Positions 23,625-63,127 of a stretch of 64,000 nucleotides of DNA are shown here, one piece after another. Under the pieces are notes generated by a model. It saw only the letters and a program-made list of their open reading frames with translations, ran no database searches and was not told where the DNA came from. The stretch is from the NCBI RefSeq assembly GCF_003201475.1, contig NZ_QJJK01000001.1, forward strand, positions 260,501 to 324,500, given 5' to 3'. The first letter of the stretch is position 1. Each line of letters starts with the position of its first letter. The DNA is from Chelatococcus asaccharovorans. Lineage in GTDB: Bacteria; Pseudomonadota; Alphaproteobacteria; Rhizobiales; Beijerinckiaceae. The translations under genes and the position numbers were made by a program.

Positions 23625-24911
23625 ATGAAGCTGATCAAGAGCCTTTTGCTCGGCAGCGCTGCCGGCTTTGCCGCCGTTGCCGGAGCACAAGCCGCCGATC
23701 TTCCCATGACCAAGGCCGCGCCGGTCGACTATGTGCGCGTGTGCTCCGTGCATGGCGCCGGGTTCTTCTATATTCCCGGCAGCGACACCTGCATCAAGCT
23801 GGCCGGCCGCGTCCGCGCCGAATTCATGTACCAGCAGCCGCTCAACAACGGGGCTGGCGAAGGCCGCTATCGTGACGCCACCGGCTTCCGTGGTCGCGGC
23901 CAGCTCGATGTCGACGCCCGCACGTCTTCCGAATGGGGCGTGGTCCGCGCGTATTTCCGCTTTCAATTGACGCGTGATTCGGGCGCATTCCGTGCGAGCT
24001 ACGACGGCCCGCAGGGCAGCACCACGAATTCCAACCTCGACAAGGCCTTCATCCAGTTCGCCGGCATCACGGCCGGTGTGGCCCAGTCCTTCTTCGACTT
24101 CTACGCCTCGGCCGCGAACTTCGCCTCGGCGCCGGGCACGTCGATGGGCTCGGACAACGGCAACACCCAGCTGCTCGCCTATACCGCAACCTTTGGGCAG
24201 GGCTTCTCGGCGACGATCGCCATCGAAGACCGCAACCAGCGCAACGTCGGCGGCAACTATTACGACGTCGCCGGCGAACGCATGCCCGACGTCGTAGCCG
24301 CACTCCGCGTCGATCAGGGGTGGGGTTCGGCCCAGTTGTCGGGTGCGCTACGCCAGCTCAACTCCGGTGCACTCTATGGCTATAACAATTCGAGCCGCGT
24401 CGACACCGAATGGGGCTATGCCATCCAGGCCGGCGTGAAGATCAACCTGCCCGCGCTTGCCGCGGGCGACGCCCTGTGGCTGCAGGCGGCTTACGCGGAT
24501 GGCGGTCTCAACTATCTCGGCATCACCGGGCCGACGTTGGGTACCTACACGTCCGCCTATATCCCCACCGCTGACGCAGTTCTCGTCAATGGCCAGATCG
24601 AGAAGACGAAGGGCTGGAACGTTCTCGGCAACCTCATTCACTACTGGACGCCCAGCCTGCGCTCCACGCTGTTCGGCAGCTTCTGGCAGATCGACTACGG
24701 CAGCACGGTCACCAACAACACGGTCTTCCGGGATTACAAGATCTACCAGGCCGGTTCGGCTCTGATCTGGTCGCCGGTCAAGGCCATGGATATCGGTGTC
24801 GAGGTGCTCTACGCGAAGTTCGACCCCAGCCGCCGCTGGAACGACGAGGTCTACCAGAAGGGCTCCGAAGATCAGTGGCAGGGCCGCGTCCGCTTCCAGC
24901 GCGACTTCTGA
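23625..24911 (+). CDS. Alphaproteobacterial outer-membrane porin
   Basis: A 428-aa beta-barrel porin. The signal peptide MKLIKSLLLGSAAGFAAVAG ends near residue 24 (AQA). The mature part starts ADLPMTKAAPVDYVRVCSVHGAGF and has the cysteine pair and GAGFFYIPGSDTCIKLAGRVR typical of rhizobial porins. Alternating polar/aromatic strands follow, ending in RVRFQRDF with a terminal phenylalanine for barrel assembly. The start at 23625 follows CCGGAGATT. An upstream in-frame ATG at 23457 would bury the signal peptide and was rejected. Confidence 0.95.
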   Translation: MKLIKSLLLGSAAGFAAVAGAQAADLPMTKAAPVDYVRVCSVHGAGFFYIPGSDTCIKLAGRVRAEFMYQQPLNNGAGEGRYRDATGFRGRGQLDVDARTSSEWGVVRAYFRFQLTRDSGAFRASYDGPQGSTTNSNLDKAFIQFAGITAGVAQSFFDFYASAANFASAPGTSMGSDNGNTQLLAYTATFGQGFSATIAIEDRNQRNVGGNYYDVAGERMPDVVAALRVDQGWGSAQLSGALRQLNSGALYGYNNSSRVDTEWGYAIQAGVKINLPALAAGDALWLQAAYADGGLNYLGITGPTLGTYTSAYIPTADAVLVNGQIEKTKGWNVLGNLIHYWTPSLRSTLFGSFWQIDYGSTVTNNTVFRDYKIYQAGSALIWSPVKAMDIGVEVLYAKFDPSRRWNDEVYQKGSEDQWQGRVRFQRDF

Positions 24912-24959
24912 TCTCCTGGACCCACCGGTCGACGACCGTCGGCTGGCAGGATGGTGTGA

Positions 24960-24995
24960 GGCCGGCGTCCCAAGGGGCGCCGGCCTTTCCTTTTC
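24960..24995 (+). terminator. Rho-independent terminator of the porin gene
   Basis: Stem GGCCGGCG/CGCCGGCC (24960-24967 and 24978-24985) with a 10-nt loop, followed by TTTCCTTTTC. It lies 49 nt after the porin stop. Confidence 0.75.
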
Positions 24996-25155
24996 AGGCC
25001 CCGGCGCGGGTCCCAGGATTTCGTCGCGGCCGTCGAAAGAGTTGTCGCCGCCCGGAGATAAGCTTGAACCGCTCGCAGAAGGCTCTGGATTCCCCTATAC
25101 AGGCGGGCGCACTCTCGAACGGTTGACGATTCCATGTGTTACGGGGGGTAAGACC

Positions 25156-26718
25156 ATGACGCCACGTTCCGGTGAGCAGGACAATCCTGCCAGCGCAGCC
25201 CCCGTTCTGATTGTCGGGGGCGGTCCGGCGGGCTTGTTCGCCGCCTCGGAGCTCATGCGCCATGGCGTCAGGCCGCGTATCGTCGAGAAGAGGCTCGCGC
25301 CGCACCATGAAACACGCGGCACGGTCATCCAGCCCGCCGTCCTGGAAATCCTGGATCGCGGTGGCCTGATCGACCCTTTTCTCCAGGCTGGCACGCGTAT
25401 CGAGCACATCCAGATCCTTGGGCCGGGCCTGCGCGAACTGGCGCGCGCAGATCTCGCAGGCATAGGCTGCAAATACGAGTTCCAGTGCAGCCTGCCCCAG
25501 TGGCGCACGGAGACCATCCTGCGTGAGCATCTGGCGGACCAAGGGCTCCACGTCGAGTACGGAATCGACGTCACATCGATCGATGAGGGCCCTACAGGCG
25601 TCGAGGTGACGCTCGAGACAGACGGACGCACGGAAACCCTGGATGCCGCCTATGTGCTGGGCGCCGGCGGCGGGCACAGCGTGACGCGACACATGATGGG
25701 CCAGCATCTCGTCGGCTCGACCTACGACGGACGCTATATCGTAGCGGATGTGGCGCTCAGGCTATCCACGCCGCCGGCCTATGGCCGCGTCCTTGTCGGA
25801 CCTGACGGCTTTGTTCTGGTGTCGCCGCTCCCGGACCATCGTTGGCTGATTTTTGTCAATCGCAACGACGACGATGTGCGCGACGCGCTGCCAACCGAGG
25901 CGGAGCTCAGCACCCTCCTCAATACGCGCGCCGGCGCGGACGTCGGGCTGCACGACCTGCGCTGGGTGTCCTACTTCAAGATGCACAAGCGCGCCGTGCC
26001 CAGCCTGGGCGACGGACGGCGCTTCCTGCTCGGCGACGCCGCACATATGTCGAGCCCGCTCGGCGGCGAGGGCATCAACGCGGCCTTCATGGACGCGGCC
26101 GATCTTGCGTGGAAGCTGGCGTTGGTGGCCCACGGGGCGGCCAAGCCGGCCATCCTCGACAGCTATGCCGTCGAGCGAGGGATGGCCGACCAGCACGTGC
26201 TTGACGTGTCCGATGAAGTCCACAGTTTCATCATGGGCCTCGTCATGCAATGCGGCGCCGATAGCGCGCCATCCCTGCCCCCCGGTGACCCGGCCGAGGT
26301 CCTCCTCGGCTTGCGTCGACGGTCGATGCTCGACGTCTCATACACGGGAAGTCCATTGATCGCAGCGCAATCGGCGGATGATGCCGTTGGCGGCCGCCTT
26401 CCGGCCTGGCATCGACTCGCCGGAACGAGCCACCACCTCATCATTTTCGACAACACGCCGGGCCGTCAGGCGTTCGACGCCCGCTGGCAGCACGCCGTCG
26501 CGGCCGTCGAAGGGCGGAGCCTTGGCTTGGAGCCCTCAGCGGCTGGCGTGTCCGACCGCGGCGCCGTCCTCGTCCGGCCCGACGGCTTCATCGGTTTTCG
26601 CGCCCCTGCGCTGGACGACGCTGCCGTCGACGCACTCGATATCCATCTGGCGTCGTATCTGATGCCGCTGCCGGCGGAGAAGGCCGCAGAGGCGCCAGCC
26701 GCGGTTGCACAGGTTTAA
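25156..26718 (+). CDS. Class A FAD-dependent aromatic-ring monooxygenase
   Basis: A 520-aa flavoprotein hydroxylase of the PheA/MhpA/PcpB group. The FAD motif VGGGPAGLFAASELMRHG begins near residue 20, and the second FAD motif FLLGDAAHMSSPLGGEGINA near residue 290. The intermediate DG motif is atypical here (GAGGGHSVTR instead of GADG). A C-terminal thioredoxin-like region (residues about 410-500) is usual for phenol hydroxylases. The start at 25156 was chosen because the upstream frame runs through the porin. It probably adds a hydroxyl to a phenolic compound using NAD(P)H and O2. Confidence 0.9.
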   Translation: MTPRSGEQDNPASAAPVLIVGGGPAGLFAASELMRHGVRPRIVEKRLAPHHETRGTVIQPAVLEILDRGGLIDPFLQAGTRIEHIQILGPGLRELARADLAGIGCKYEFQCSLPQWRTETILREHLADQGLHVEYGIDVTSIDEGPTGVEVTLETDGRTETLDAAYVLGAGGGHSVTRHMMGQHLVGSTYDGRYIVADVALRLSTPPAYGRVLVGPDGFVLVSPLPDHRWLIFVNRNDDDVRDALPTEAELSTLLNTRAGADVGLHDLRWVSYFKMHKRAVPSLGDGRRFLLGDAAHMSSPLGGEGINAAFMDAADLAWKLALVAHGAAKPAILDSYAVERGMADQHVLDVSDEVHSFIMGLVMQCGADSAPSLPPGDPAEVLLGLRRRSMLDVSYTGSPLIAAQSADDAVGGRLPAWHRLAGTSHHLIIFDNTPGRQAFDARWQHAVAAVEGRSLGLEPSAAGVSDRGAVLVRPDGFIGFRAPALDDAAVDALDIHLASYLMPLPAEKAAEAPAAVAQV

Positions 26719-35036: not shown

Positions 35037-35113
35037 CTAGTGGTTCGACTCTGACATTTGCATCCGTGCGATACCACCCTCGGAGCAAATGTCGGAGTCA
35101 AGAAAACCACTAG
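35037..35113. repeat. Palindromic element 1 (about 77 bp)
   Basis: Arms begin CTAGTGGTT and contain GACTCYGACATTTGC; the reverse complement ends the element (GCAAATGTCGGAGTC...AACCACTAG). It has a 20-nt central loop. Same layout as element 2 directly downstream. Confidence 0.7.
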
Positions 35114-35126
35114 CAAGTTATTGGTT

Positions 35127-35205
35127 CTAGTGGAGCTTTTGAATTTGACATTTGATCTGGAGCTTGATGTCAGGTGGGACTCAAATGTCAAATTCGCTCC
35201 ACTAG
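35127..35205. repeat. Palindromic element 2 (about 79 bp)
   Basis: Arms CTAGTGGAGC...GAATTTGACATTTGA and TCAAATGTCAAATTCGCTCCACTAG. It shares the CTAGTGG ends and GACATTTG core with element 1, from which it is separated by 13 nt. They look like two members of one repeat family inserted in tandem. Confidence 0.7.
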
Positions 35206-35477
35206 CCTAGTTCAGGTGACCCAACTCTGTCGGTCGAAATCGCAAACCAAGCAAGCATGCTGGAGGCTGGCAGTCTCTCTACCGGTGGCTTTCTTGCCGG
35301 ACCGCGCCGACGGCAGTCTCGCATGCGAGGTTCACCCTCGGATGAACGCGAAGAGGCCCGCGTTGCTCTCGTCGGCGTTCATGGGAGGCGCAGCAGGTCC
35401 TGTACCCGCCGCCACTTGGCGATGGGGCGCATTCTTCATCTTCTTTGCCAACGCTTTCACCGGGACGGACACCGTCA

Positions 35478-37643: not shown

Positions 37644-37924
37644 CTAGGTTCAATCGACATTCAGCGCTCTCAGCTGTCATGGCCGGGCTTGTCATTGACG
37701 TCGGCCTTGCCCGACGTCAACTTGTCCAACGCGGAACTCGGCAAACAGCCGAGTTCCGTTGCCATCCCGATGTATCGAGGCGCCTCTCCGGTCGGGATCA
37801 TAGGAACGCGGCTGTTGCCGCATTCCCGATCCATAGCCGAAATCGGGTGAACCCGATTTCGGGGACAAGCCCGGTGATGACAACGTAACTCTTGCGGCAA
37901 TTCTTGAATGTCGATTGATCCTAG
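37644..37924. repeat. Structured 281-bp segment bounded by 20-bp inverted repeats
   Basis: CTAGGTTCAATCGACATTCA (37644-37663) and its reverse complement (37905-37924, one mismatch) bound the segment. Inside are perfect hairpins: 10-bp arms at 37695-37704/37711-37720, 10-bp arms at 37733-37742/37748-37757, and 12-bp arms at 37837-37848/37851-37862. Near-matching GGCCGGGCTTGT and ACAAGCCCGGTG blocks also face each other. The right end coincides with the stop codon of a transposase remnant, so the outer repeats are likely two facing IS ends. Confidence 0.65.
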
Positions 37925-58543: not shown

Positions 58544-58724
58544 TCGTCGCCAACACCTCTCCGAAATTTCTCCACACCAAATTGAAAGCCAAGCCGCCGA
58601 ATTCCTGTATTTGCACGCTACGGTACTACGCCGCTAAAACCTTGTTGAATCCGCCCTAAATCAGGCTCTTTCAATCGACTTCGCAAGGGGAAGGCCAGTT
58701 GATCCCCGGTGAACGCGGGACGAC

Positions 58725-58937
58725 ATGAAAGCTTCACGCCACAATTCTGAAGGGCTTGCACGCGGCGCACGGATGCTGCGCACCGCTCTCGGTCCGGCCA
58801 TTACGCGGCTTCTGGAAGACGCCTCCATCGTCGAGGTGATGCTGAATCCGGATGGGCGCATCTGGATCGATCGGCTTTCCGAAGGGCTGTCGGATACCGG
58901 CGAGCATCTGTCGCCGGCTGATGGCGAGCGCATCCTC
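58725..58937 (+). pseudogene. trbB: 5' fragment of conjugative-transfer ATPase gene trbB
   Basis: The first ~70 codons encode [20 protein letters not shown] and then [19 protein letters not shown] and SPADGERI, the N-terminus of rhizobial TrbB. After GERI (58934) the sequence no longer matches; the ATPase core with its Walker motifs is missing. The frame stops at 59099 after unrelated residues. It marks a decayed conjugation operon. Confidence 0.75.
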
Positions 58938-59158
58938 GGGCACGGGATTAGCGACAGCAGATTGACTGTGTCCAGGTCGGGTCGCGCGGACAGGCCTCGA
59001 TGCCGGATGGGGCGATGGCCTGACGCGATATCCATATCGCGCTGGGCATCCCGCAGAGAGGAGATCGAGCGACTTCGATGGCCAAGATCTATATCTTGAT
59101 ATTTTCTATAGATTATGTGTAATTTAGTATCTCCCAACACTCCAAACGGATCGACGCG

Positions 59159-60772
59159 ATGTCTTCCTTCCCTCCCGACGGCCTGCCCCTTACGCGACGG
59201 GCAATGGTCGGCGCCCTGGCTGCCCTCGGGCTTTCCACCCTTCCTGTCCCGCTGTCGGCCCAGGACACGCCGGTGCGTGGCGGTATCCTGACGGTCTCGC
59301 TTTCGACCGAGGCCGGGTCGATCGCGGCGGTGAACAACACGACGCCGTTTGCTTATTTCATCAGCTCGAAGATCCTCGAAGGATTGCTGAGCTATGACTT
59401 CGACTACAATCCCCAGCCGGAACTAGCGACCGAATGGGCCGTCAGCGAGGATGGCCTGCGCTACTGGTTCCGTCTGCGCGAGGGTGTGCGCTGGCATGAC
59501 GGCAAGCCCTTCGACGCCAAGGACGTGGTCTTTTCGATCCTGCTGCAGCGTGATGTCCACCCGCGCGGCCGTCGCGTGTTCCGCAACGTGACCGCGGTCA
59601 ACGCCCTGGGATCGCACGAGGTCGAGATCCTGCTATCCGAACCTGCGCCCTATCTGCTGGTGGCCTTTGCGGGCTCGGGCGTGCCTATCGCGCCGGCCCA
59701 TATCTATGCCGGGACCGATATCGCGGCCAACCCGGCGAACAATGCCCCCATCGGCACGGGCCCCTTCCGCTTTGTCGAATGGGTGCGTGGCAGCCACATC
59801 ATCCTGGAGCGCAATGACGACTACTGGGACCAGCCGCGCCCCTATCTGGACGGGATCGTCTATCGCTTCGTCTTCGACCCTCTGACGCAGGTCGCAGGCA
59901 TCGAGACCGGCGAGGTTCACCTGACCCCGACGGGCGTGCCGCTGAGCGAACTCGACCGCTTGCGCCGGAATCCGCAGCTCGGCATCGAGACGCGCGGGTT
60001 TGGCTACAACAATACGATCGTCAGGCTGGAATTTAACCTCGACCATCCGCATCTGTCCGACCTTCGTGTGCGCCAGGCCATTGCCCATGCGATTGATGTC
60101 GAAACCATCGCCAGTACCGCCTATCAGGGTCAGGCCACGCCGCTCTACGGGCCGGTCAGCCCCGGTCTGGCTGCCTTCTACGACCCGAACCTGCCGCGCT
60201 ACGCCGTCGACCCCGCCCGCGCCGAGGCCCTCCTCGACGAGGCCGGCCTCAGGCGCGGCGCCGACGGGGTGCGGTTCGAGGTCTTCCTCGACCCGGTGCA
60301 GCCTACGGGGCCAATTCGCCAAACGGCTGACTATATCGCGCAGGCCCTGGGCAAGATCGGCATCCGGGTGACCATCCGAGGGCAGGACTTCGCCACCTAT
60401 GTCCGGCGGATCTATACCGCGCGCGATTTCGACATCGCCTTGCAGGGGCTGAGCAATCTCTATGATCCGGTCGCCGGGATCCAGGGGCTGTTCTGGTCGC
60501 GCAGCATCGAGCCGGGCGTGCCCTTCGTGAATGCCGCGCATTATCGCAGCGCCGAGACCGACCGCCTGCTGGAAGCGGCCGCCATCGAGACCAACACCGT
60601 CCGGCGGCGCACCCTCTACGATGCGTTCCAGCGGCAGGTGGTCGCCGATCTGCCGGCGTTGCATCTCGTCGCACCCGACGCTTTCACGGTCTACAACACC
60701 CGCGTACGCGACCACACGCTGACCGTCGACGGATTCGGCAGCCGCGGCGCGCATGTGTGGCTGGCGCGCTGA
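59159..60772 (+). CDS. Peptide-type ABC binding protein (SBP family 5)
   Basis: A 537-aa exported binding protein with a twin-arginine-like signal (LTRRAMVGALAALGLSTLPV), cleavage near residue 35 (SAQ). Family-5 features are LREGVRWHDGKPFDAKDVVFS near residue 104 and VRQAIAHAIDVETIAS in the middle. No permease or ATPase lies next to it; it is followed by an M20 amidohydrolase. The pair sits exactly between the trbB and trbG/trbI fragments, so it looks like cargo that replaced the rest of the operon. Confidence 0.9.
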   Translation: MSSFPPDGLPLTRRAMVGALAALGLSTLPVPLSAQDTPVRGGILTVSLSTEAGSIAAVNNTTPFAYFISSKILEGLLSYDFDYNPQPELATEWAVSEDGLRYWFRLREGVRWHDGKPFDAKDVVFSILLQRDVHPRGRRVFRNVTAVNALGSHEVEILLSEPAPYLLVAFAGSGVPIAPAHIYAGTDIAANPANNAPIGTGPFRFVEWVRGSHIILERNDDYWDQPRPYLDGIVYRFVFDPLTQVAGIETGEVHLTPTGVPLSELDRLRRNPQLGIETRGFGYNNTIVRLEFNLDHPHLSDLRVRQAIAHAIDVETIASTAYQGQATPLYGPVSPGLAAFYDPNLPRYAVDPARAEALLDEAGLRRGADGVRFEVFLDPVQPTGPIRQTADYIAQALGKIGIRVTIRGQDFATYVRRIYTARDFDIALQGLSNLYDPVAGIQGLFWSRSIEPGVPFVNAAHYRSAETDRLLEAAAIETNTVRRRTLYDAFQRQVVADLPALHLVAPDAFTVYNTRVRDHTLTVDGFGSRGAHVWLAR

Positions 60773-60856
60773 CCGTGGACGAGCCCTGACCCCGGAACCC
60801 GCCGCGCCCGGGGAACCCGGCGCGCTCTCCTTCAAACCGAGACAAGATCGGACGTC

Positions 60857-62059
60857 ATGACCGCAGACCAGACCGCCACCGCCGCCGGCACCGGGATCAT
60901 TCCCCGCATCGCCGGCTTCGCCGACGAGATCGTGGCCCTCCGGCACGATCTTCACCAACATCCCGAGATCGGGTTTGAGGAAGTCCGCACCTCGGAAATC
61001 GTGGCGCAGAAATTGGCCGAGTGGGGCATCGAGGTGTACCGGGGCTACGGCAAGACCGGGGTTGTCGGACGCCTGAAGGGACGGCACGAGGGCAACCGCG
61101 TGGTGGGGCTGCGTGCCGACATGGACGCCCTGCCGATCGTCGAAGCGACCGGCCTTCCCTATGCTTCGGTTCATCACGGGGTCTTTCACGGCTGCGGTCA
61201 TGATGCCCATACCGCGATCCTTCTGGGGGTCGCGCGCTACCTGGCCGAGACGCGCGATTTTGCCGGAACAGTGCAGTTCATCTTCCAGCCCGCCGAAGAG
61301 GGGCTGGGCGGCGCGCGCGCGATGCTCGCCGACGGGCTGTTTCGGGATTTCCCAGTCGATGAGATCTACGGCCTGCACAATGCGCCCGGCACCTACCTAC
61401 CGCCCGGCCATCTGCGCGTATCGCCCGGCGTGTCGATGGCGGCGGCTGACTTCTTCGACATCACGCTCAGGGGCAAGGGCGCCCATGCGGCGCATCCGGA
61501 TACCGCGCATGATCCGATTCCGGCGGTGGCCGAACTGATCCAGGCGCTGCAGACCATCGTCAGCCGCAATGTCAGGGCCACCGACCCCGTCGTGCTGTCG
61601 ATTACCAGGGTGCATGGCGGGACGGCGTACAACGTGATCCCCGAGACGGTCTCGATCGCGGGCACGGTGCGAGCCTTTTCGGACCCGATTCGCGAGGTCG
61701 TCCGCGAGCGGATCCGGGCCATTTCGCACCATGTCGCAGCGGCGCATGGGGCTGTAGCCGAGGTCGAGATCCGAGATGTCTTTTCGGTACTGACCAATGA
61801 CCCGGACAGCGTGAACCACGTAGCGGTGGTGGCGCGGCAGGTTCTGGGCGACAGCAAGGTCGTGGTTGAAAAGGCCCGGATCCTGGGCAGCGAGGATTTC
61901 GCGGATTTCCTGAAACATGCCCCCGGCGCATTCTTCTCGATCGGTCACAACGGCATGGTTCCACTGCACAATCCGGGCTTCATCCTGGACGATGGCTTGC
62001 TGCCCATCGGGGCTTCGGTCCTGTCACGCCTGGTCGAAAGCCGGCTGGCCGCGGGCTGA
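60857..62059 (+). CDS. M20 family metallo-amidohydrolase (hippurate-hydrolase type)
   Basis: A 400-aa zinc/manganese amidohydrolase. LRHDLHQHPEIGFEE near residue 30, GLRADMDALPI near 83, the metal ligands in GCGHDAHTA near 113, QPAEEGLGGA near 148, and SEDFADFL near the C-terminus are all conserved. The family cleaves N-acyl amino acids or similar amides. Its position after a family-5 binding protein suggests uptake and hydrolysis of an N-acylated compound. Confidence 0.93.
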   Translation: MTADQTATAAGTGIIPRIAGFADEIVALRHDLHQHPEIGFEEVRTSEIVAQKLAEWGIEVYRGYGKTGVVGRLKGRHEGNRVVGLRADMDALPIVEATGLPYASVHHGVFHGCGHDAHTAILLGVARYLAETRDFAGTVQFIFQPAEEGLGGARAMLADGLFRDFPVDEIYGLHNAPGTYLPPGHLRVSPGVSMAAADFFDITLRGKGAHAAHPDTAHDPIPAVAELIQALQTIVSRNVRATDPVVLSITRVHGGTAYNVIPETVSIAGTVRAFSDPIREVVRERIRAISHHVAAAHGAVAEVEIRDVFSVLTNDPDSVNHVAVVARQVLGDSKVVVEKARILGSEDFADFLKHAPGAFFSIGHNGMVPLHNPGFILDDGLLPIGASVLSRLVESRLAAG

Positions 62060-62121
62060 GATCCGGGGGGCGCGGGTCCGGCCGTCTTGGCTGCCTGTGG
62101 GCTGGTCCGGAGCGTGGCGCG

Positions 62122-62178
62122 GCGAAAGATCAGAAGCGCGTGCGTATCTCGCGCACCGACGGGAGGCCCGCATCGTGA
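62122..62178 (+). pseudogene. trbG: 3' tail of trbG
   Basis: The frame reads AAKDQKRVRISRTDGRPAS and stops with a TGA that overlaps a GTG start, the same arrangement as the trbG-trbI junction in trb operons. Only about 19 codons remain, so the identification rests mainly on this junction and on the trbI segment that follows. Confidence 0.5.
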
Positions 62179-62618
62179 GCGAGGAACATCCCGAAACGGA
62201 GGAAGGTGCGACGCCTGCCGCACCACGTCCCGCCGAGACGTCCTAGAGCATTTTCGAGCGAAGTGGACACCGGTTCGCGTGAAGAAAATGCGCTAAAACA
62301 AAGACATGGAGCATTTTCGCGATTCGGAGAAACGCGAAAATGCTCTAGCAGGAGTCCCGCCCGCTGACCGGTGAGCCGGTCGCGCCGATGCGGCTGCGGC
62401 CCGAACCGCCACGCGTGACGCGCCTGTCGCGAAAGGTGCTGATCGCCCTCGGTGTGCTTGCCGGCACCGGTATCGGCGGCACCTTGATCTACGCGCTCCA
62501 GACCCGGCACGGCGGCAAGACCACCGAGGAGCTCTATTCGACAGACAACCGGACGACGCCCGACGGCCTCGCCGGCCTGCCGAAAGATTATGCCGGTATC
62601 CCGAAGCTCGGTCCGCCG
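62175..62618 (+). pseudogene. trbI: 5' fragment of trbI interrupted by the 106-bp element
   Basis: A GTG start gives SEEHPETEEGATPAAPRPAE, then the 106-bp element brings an in-frame TAG. Beyond it the same frame resumes: QESRPLTGEPVAPMRLRP, RVTRLSRKVLIALGVLAG, TTEELYSTDNRTTPDGLAGL. These match the N-terminal cytoplasmic part and membrane helix of TrbI. The match ends at LGPP (62618) and most of the protein is missing. Confidence 0.75.
62243..62348. repeat. 106-bp palindromic element, copy 2
   Basis: Same element as 38066-38171 with two differences in 106 positions. Terminal 14-nt inverted repeats CTAGAGCATTTTCG/CGAAAATGCTCTAG. It lies within the trbI reading frame. Confidence 0.9.
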
Positions 62619-62731
62619 CGGCCGCGAAGAAGGCCGCAGAGGCGCCAGCTTAGCGAGAGCCAATCCGGCTTGGATTGCCCGGTGGATCCAAAAACAGCAA
62701 ATCAGGAAGGGAGGGAATGACTAAAGTCATT

Positions 62732-62807
62732 GGCGCGCCGGGGAAGATTCGAACTCCCGACCCCCAGATTCGTAGTCTGGTGCTCTATCCAGCTGAGCTA
62801 CCGGCGC
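62732..62807 (-). tRNA. tRNA-Arg (anticodon ACG)
   Basis: The reverse complement folds as a complete tRNA. The acceptor stem GCGCCGG pairs with CCGGCGC, a G discriminator is followed by an encoded CCA, and the D-arm is AGCTCAGCTGGATAGAGC. The anticodon arm CCAGA-CTACGAA-TCTGG has anticodon ACG, and the T-arm contains GTTCGAATC. It is 76 nt long including CCA. Its 3' end faces the trbI fragment, as usual for tRNA genes used as ICE insertion sites. Confidence 0.95.
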
Positions 62808-62982: not shown

Positions 62983-63127
62983 CTTTGCCACGCGGGCGCC
63001 GGCCACAGTGGAAAAAGGCGCTAGCGCAAATCCGACTTGAAGGGAATCGTCCGACACCATCCAAGTCGGTGAATTTGCGCGTCAATTTTCGAACGGAGCA
63101 AGTCCGCAAAAGACGGACTTGCTCTGG
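62983..63127 (-). repeat. Interspersed repeat, copy 2
   Basis: Reverse-complement counterpart of 34527-34681. It contains the 11-bp hairpin arms GAGCAAGTCCG/CGGACTTGCTC with loop CAAAAGA, and blocks matching the other copy in order. The 17-mer tandem is absent here. Confidence 0.65.

Follow-up and report, generated by a model that had tools for sequence, protein, structure and literature searches.

The window (the whole stretch of DNA that was analysed, 64,000 nucleotides, C1:260501-324500) belongs to the draft genome of Chelatococcus asaccharovorans, which comprises 7.25 Mb in 40 contigs. Debris of a trb conjugation operon is present in the window beside a tRNA-Arg(ACG) gene. It forms one end, that nearest the tRNA, of an accessory stretch of 36.0 kb that reaches from an FAD-monooxygenase gene to the tRNA. 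The first-pass annotation had placed the locus at 58725-62807; debris does lie there, but trb homology starts at ~58585 and the debris is the end of the 36-kb stretch rather than a locus of 4 kb. The features of the region are given below by coordinates, strand and description.

24796-26718, (+): FAD-dependent monooxygenase gene of the backbone (PF01494/PF21274); the accessory stretch has its left border at the 3' end of this gene; 24796 is a mechanical ORF start, and congener homology begins at ~25121
26664-26699, (+): 36-bp border repeat, native copy, formed by 3' codons of the monooxygenase gene; 22-bp exact core at 26678-26699
26719-58584, no strand: body of the accessory stretch, described using Pfam, congener comparison and trb-locus queries
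58585-58934, (+): trbB upstream region and trbB codons 1 to ~75 (ATG at 58725), truncated
58935-59010, (+): trbL fragment (codons ~95-118), containing an in-frame stop and joined directly to trbB
59159-60772, (+): family-5 solute-binding protein (SBP) gene, intact, 537 aa (PF00496, E 8e-89)
60857-62059, (+): M20 amidohydrolase gene, intact, 400 aa (PF01546, E 2e-41; TIGR01891, 386 bits)
62115-62178, (+): trbG 3' end (…VRISRTDGRPAS stop), by DNA match to sibling loci
62175-62618, (+): trbI 5' part, from a GTG start at 62175 to ~codon 86 of the siblings
62243-62348, no strand: 106-bp dispersed palindromic repeat, RIME-like, within trbI
62615-62649, (+): monooxygenase 3' end, second copy (36-column alignment, 92%); 22-bp exact core at 62628-62649
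62731-62807, (-): tRNA-Arg(ACG), intact, with its 3' end towards the trb debris

Compared alone against Pfam, the short fragments matched no family at E <= 0.01, so that trb proteins of sibling loci were required as queries. Eleven proteins of the second trb locus of the same genome (L011), without TrbC and TrbD, were used for tblastn. TrbB residues 5-77 were aligned with 58719-58937 (74%, E 4e-30), TrbI residues 10-85 with 62382-62612 (65%, E 2e-22), and TrbL residues 95-118 with 58933-59004 (62%, E 0.002). The query proteins themselves scored above the NCBIfam cut-offs for TrbB (TIGR02782), TrbG (TIGR02775) and TrbL (PRK13875 and TIGR02783), and the query TrbI was placed in PF03743 using Pfam. 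In a DNA comparison with seven sibling trb loci from four genomes (E <= 0.01), the trbB debris and the trbI debris were each matched by all seven loci, the trbL fragment by four (best E 2e-8), and the trbG tail weakly by two (E 0.006 each). An eighth sibling locus, compared separately, matched the trbG tail (86% over 42 bp, E 1e-6) and gave no DNA match to the trbB, trbL or trbI pieces at E <= 1e-3. By sequence similarity, the pieces are thereby confirmed as debris of trbB, trbL, trbG and trbI, in the same operon order and on the same strand as in the siblings. The earlier identification of trbB, trbG and trbI was borne out, with the trbG tail matched at the DNA level only, as was the statement that the order B...G-I had been kept; the trbL fragment had been missed, and the 106-bp repeat in trbI is a further refinement.

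The sibling operon L011 is located on the same contig (~C1:363744-385772) near tRNA-Arg(CCG), with its trbI 44 kb away and with the same geometry. Its gene order is traG, a CopG-like gene, trbB, (trbC, trbD), trbE, trbJ, trbL, trbF, trbG, trbI and a large serine recombinase gene. Proteins of L011 were assigned to TrbB, TrbE, TrbL, TrbF, TrbG, TrbI and TraG using NCBIfam and Pfam; the names trbC, trbD and trbJ were given by position, and TrbJ had no Pfam match. Like the window, L011 has its trbI end directed towards the 3' end of a tRNA-Arg gene, and its trbB (C1:376240-376413) is 85% identical at the DNA level over 174 bp. Unlike in the window, trbB, trbE, trbJ, trbL, trbF, trbG, trbI, traG and the serine recombinase gene are open, although a nearby DUF3363 relaxase gene looks broken. 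The serine recombinase gene sits between trbI and tRNA-Arg(CCG), and the same arrangement occurs in one congener, G001 (locus L079). The recombinase frame (L011:3744-5449, equal to C1:363744-365449) runs antisense over most of tRNA-Arg(CCG), so that its C-terminus is read from the tRNA gene, and likewise in L079.

DUF3363 relaxases, which we take to be the equivalent of RlxS, were found in all four genus genomes. The one near tRNA-Arg(CCG) (C1:384634-385772) gave two matches in different open frames, one of them with a TGA, so the L011 element may also be unable to transfer. The siblings are fuller rather than complete operons, as trbE in L079 and trbL in L087 each match in two frames. No tRNA gene was present in the fetched stretch of six of the eight sibling loci (L087 having little DNA past trbI), so that linkage to a tRNA does not hold for all of them. 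The same genome has a third trb operon, which is more divergent and was matched from traG to trbI, at L140:7041-19016 (C1:55041-67016), with an unbroken DUF3363 relaxase match upstream and no tRNA in the 32-kb stretch fetched around it.

The trb homology of the window extends from ~58585, upstream of trbB, to trbB codon ~75 at 58934, and is directly joined there to trbL codon ~95 at 58935. The two joint points are ~5.2 kb apart in the siblings L011 and L082 by DNA comparison; because trbL is fused to trbB, the genes between would have been lost in a separate deletion of ~5.2 kb. The trbL piece, with a stop inside, ends near 59010 and is followed by the SBP-M20 pair, so this putative cargo is located between trbL and trbG and not simply in the position of trbC-trbF. 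The proposal that a segment of ~3.2 kb had replaced the operon middle (trbC-trbF) in one step is therefore not supported as it stands, as a trbL fragment lies between trbB and the SBP gene. Downstream of the pair, the trbG stop and the trbI start overlap at 62175-62178, as read from the sequence. The trbI piece is split by the 106-bp repeat and ends near 62618 (~codon 86); trbI-like sequence was recognized on both sides of the repeat, upstream by eye and downstream by DNA comparison. The repeat has CTAG...CTAG borders and at least 37 other copies in the genome, among the best 40 of 307 first-look candidates. It resembles RIME in being ~106 bp long, palindromic and dispersed, and is a candidate member of that family. 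In contrast to RIME, the copy in trbI lies inside a decaying gene. The RIME family (intergenic mosaic repeats of rhizobia) is mentioned in PMC2573895.

The body of the accessory stretch (26719-58584) was found using Pfam to contain LysR/TetR, dipeptide-type ABC transporter, LuxR-type, aldehyde dehydrogenase, TRAP transporter, ABC transporter, ROK, Cys/Met PLP enzyme and AraC genes, and GC3 among genes sampled from the stretch ranged from 62 to 84%. The 11 trb-locus proteins, including traG and the serine recombinase, had no match in the body at E <= 0.01; DUF3363, the relaxase family searched, had no match anywhere in the window, and neither did the sibling serine recombinase or the tyrosine integrase of G001. 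Recombinase, relaxase and traG debris was not identified in the stretch with these queries, so delivery of the 36 kb in one piece by an ICE is a hypothesis only. The body was also searched against three congeners (G001-G003; E <= 1e-30, best 40 candidates per genome, a setting at which weak matches may be missed); no block corresponding to it was recovered, the search giving only dispersed repeats and matches no longer than 0.64 kb at 66-68%.

Comparison of the locus in related genomes, a check proposed in the first-pass annotation, covered four genomes of the genus including this one (G000) and identified the stretch as accessory DNA at tRNA-Arg(ACG), which was located beside the debris as previously described. 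In 3/3 congeners a match to the monooxygenase gene lies beyond tRNA-Arg(ACG), and the interval between the two genes, of 0.33 kb in G003, 16.1 kb in G002, 18.4 kb in G001 and 36.0 kb here, is occupied differently in all four genomes. In G003 the tRNA is followed by 334 bp and then by the FAD-monooxygenase gene, and the matches of this backbone to the window are confined to 26.7 kb and leftward. The G002 interval holds 16.1 kb of other genes. The G001 interval contains a phage-type element with a tyrosine integrase and, as its boundary, a 52-bp duplicate of the tRNA 3' end, which identifies tRNA-Arg(ACG) as a real integration target; the interval also contains a GST-like gene and, beyond the duplicate, debris resembling an integrase tail, both judged by eye. 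The G001 element (L078:1826-19131 on contig 1 of G001, 17 kb) encodes a tape-measure-like protein, as judged by eye. An integrase-tail reading of 62655-62720 in the window, suggested by DNA similarity to the tRNA-side DNA of G001, was rejected, as tblastn with the G001 integrase gave no match in the window at E <= 1.

A duplicate of the tRNA-Arg 3' end, previously suggested as an attachment site, was not found in this genome, where the next best candidate was an 80% stretch on another contig; in this the locus differs from the G001 element. What is repeated at the borders is the monooxygenase 3' end, over 36 bp: the copy at 26664-26699 recurs as a direct repeat at 62615-62649, abutting the trbI break. 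The match had an E value of 2.5e-5 in a genome search, and in a control for the 22-bp core an exact match of at least 22 bp elsewhere in the window was obtained for one of 200 random 60-mers. The left copy is flanked by native sequence on both sides, and beyond the core it goes on into the PAAVA codons that G002 and G003 also have. The right copy lies against the interior of trbI rather than against an element end. The repeat could be an attachment site, but a short piece of filler, copied into a deletion joint, accounts for it at least as well.

The family-5 binding protein and M20 amidohydrolase genes were intact, as reported in the first-pass annotation, at the Pfam E values listed above. 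The SBP carries a twin-arginine-like signal (by eye). Its closest relative (55%) is encoded in the same genome, and relatives at E <= 1e-150, all at 47-55% only, were obtained from 6 of 298 family genomes including this one (best four candidates per genome); a search of genome contigs gave eight SBP relatives at 26-34%. Relatives of the M20 protein occur widely, with matches at E <= 1e-100 in 224 of 397 family genomes; none was found in viral contigs. Adjacent M20 and SBP genes were found elsewhere in one Polaromonas locus only (L070; 44% and 34%) among the loci compared, many of which spanned only ~1.5 kb of flank; at another locus of this genome (L089) both are present ~10 kb apart. The M20 protein scored 386 bits against TIGR01891, for which the curated cut-off is 154, and it keeps 60 of 62 strongly conserved H/D/E/G/C/R columns (positions 61 and 292 differ) in comparison with 14 of 19 relatives, the other five being dropped as they had no open stretch carrying the search motif. 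All conserved H/C/E/H columns are kept and presumably include the metal ligands. Both genes have a GC content of 65-66% and a GC3 of 80-82%, near some neighbours and the backbone, so their origin cannot be read from composition. The genes are open over their full length and are probably used. From family membership, the substrate would be peptide-like or N-acyl: it would be captured by the SBP in the periplasm, perhaps passed to a family-5 ABC permease such as that at 28.6-33.6 kb nearby, and hydrolysed by the M20 enzyme in the cytoplasm.

The backbone of ICEMlSymR7A-type ICEs is given as trbBCDEJLFGI, traG and rlxS, and ICEs without symbiosis genes adjoin tRNA-Arg among other sites, according to PMC8627217. 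The trb order of these Mesorhizobium elements is shared with the locus, and the siblings match this backbone, having trb genes together with traG and a CopG-like gene. The locus differs in keeping fragments of four trb genes only (trbB, trbL, trbG and trbI) in place of a complete operon, and at this site no recombinase (sibling serine recombinase and G001 tyrosine integrase queries), DUF3363 relaxase, coupling protein (traG query) or tRNA att duplicate was found. Two marks of a functional ICE are thus missing with these queries, the trb operon and the relaxase with its coupling protein. What is present is trb debris in operon order and 36.0 kb of extra DNA, as opposed to 0.33 kb in G003. ICE-derived islands at tRNA genes are known, and a CIME is a cis-mobilizable, ICE-derived element that retains only its attachment sites. 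The accessory stretch is similar to CIMEs and other ICE-derived islands in that cargo is kept, transfer and recombination genes are gone, and direct repeats lie at the borders; it is unlike CIMEs in that the repeats are the 3' end of a protein gene and may be repair filler.

The locus is real, well supported and mechanistically ordinary, a decayed ICE-derived remnant. Very probably it represents the tRNA-proximal end of a dead RP4/ICEMlSym-type ICE, or of an island derived from such an ICE, which sat at a tRNA-Arg hotspot and whose cargo was retained. The ancestral element would have carried an RP4/ICEMlSym-type trb mating-pore operon in the monooxygenase-tRNA-Arg(ACG) interval, which it would have reached through conjugation and site-specific recombination, either at the tRNA itself or next to it. 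The recombinase, the relaxase, traG and most trb genes would later have been lost in several separate events. These events would be the trbB|trbL deletion, the arrival of the SBP and M20 genes between trbL and trbG, insertion of the 106-bp repeat into trbI, and a rupture of trbI in which its broken end was joined to a second monooxygenase tail. In its present state the element could not transfer itself. The earlier picture of a fossil ICE whose cargo outlived the transfer genes is retained as far as it concerns intact cargo beside broken trb genes in accessory DNA. It also weighs against the preferred reading that the trbG tail match is short and that the sequence repeated at the borders is part of a protein gene rather than of the tRNA.

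An explanation that overlaps with the preferred one, and which we rate at somewhat below an even chance, is that the trb relic stems from one old element at tRNA-Arg(ACG), that the rest of the 36 kb results from unrelated events, and that the metabolic genes were never ICE cargo. Such a composite origin is consistent with the use of the interval as a repeated target (a phage-like element plus debris in G001, 16.1 kb of other genes in G002), with the spread of GC3 across the sampled genes, and with the finding of no mobility gene that ties the 31.9-kb body to the trb debris. On the other hand, the debris lies at one end, and the two copies of the monooxygenase-tail repeat enclose all 36 kb, as would be expected of a single unit. 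Another explanation is that the stretch is a CIME-like island, with the 36-bp repeats serving as attL and attR for a recombinase targeting the 3' end of the FAD-monooxygenase gene. Direct repeats at both borders with 22 bp exact, the low control frequency and the genome-search E value all favour this, but with a natively continuous left copy, a right copy at mid-trbI, a filler that fits as well or better and no recombinase left to assign, we regard it as unlikely. The further step, that the island is still recombinable with the monooxygenase 3' end as att and mobile in trans by the related ICEs of this genome, appears more doubtful again. An assembly chimera, in which unrelated contigs were misjoined through repeats, might be suspected in a 40-contig draft in which the 106-bp repeat occurs at least 38 times, once within trbI. 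Trb-like sequence nonetheless flanks this repeat on both sides in the form of trbI, the genome search showed no long repeat at the trbB|trbL joint, the trbL piece has a decay stop, and the order of the debris agrees with the siblings; a misjoin is accordingly considered highly improbable.

Read as the remnant of an ICE, the locus offers a snapshot of the death of a conjugative element, in which deletions and a repeat insertion ruined the transfer operon and the metabolic cargo stayed open, with the fuller sibling operon 44 kb off on the same contig as a reference. The general view of ICE biology is unchanged. The observations worth keeping are the trbB|trbL fusion, the monooxygenase-tail repeat and the tRNA-Arg interval, which is marked as variably occupied and differs in 4/4 genomes of the genus compared.

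Other dispersed repeats were observed in the region. Two lie in the accessory stretch, one at 35037-35206 (~170 bp, more than 30 copies among the matches listed) and one at 37644-37924 (~280 bp, several copies). Another family is represented at 63021-63125, beside tRNA-Arg(ACG), by a copy of ~105 bp with dozens of matches listed, most of them at 82-89%.
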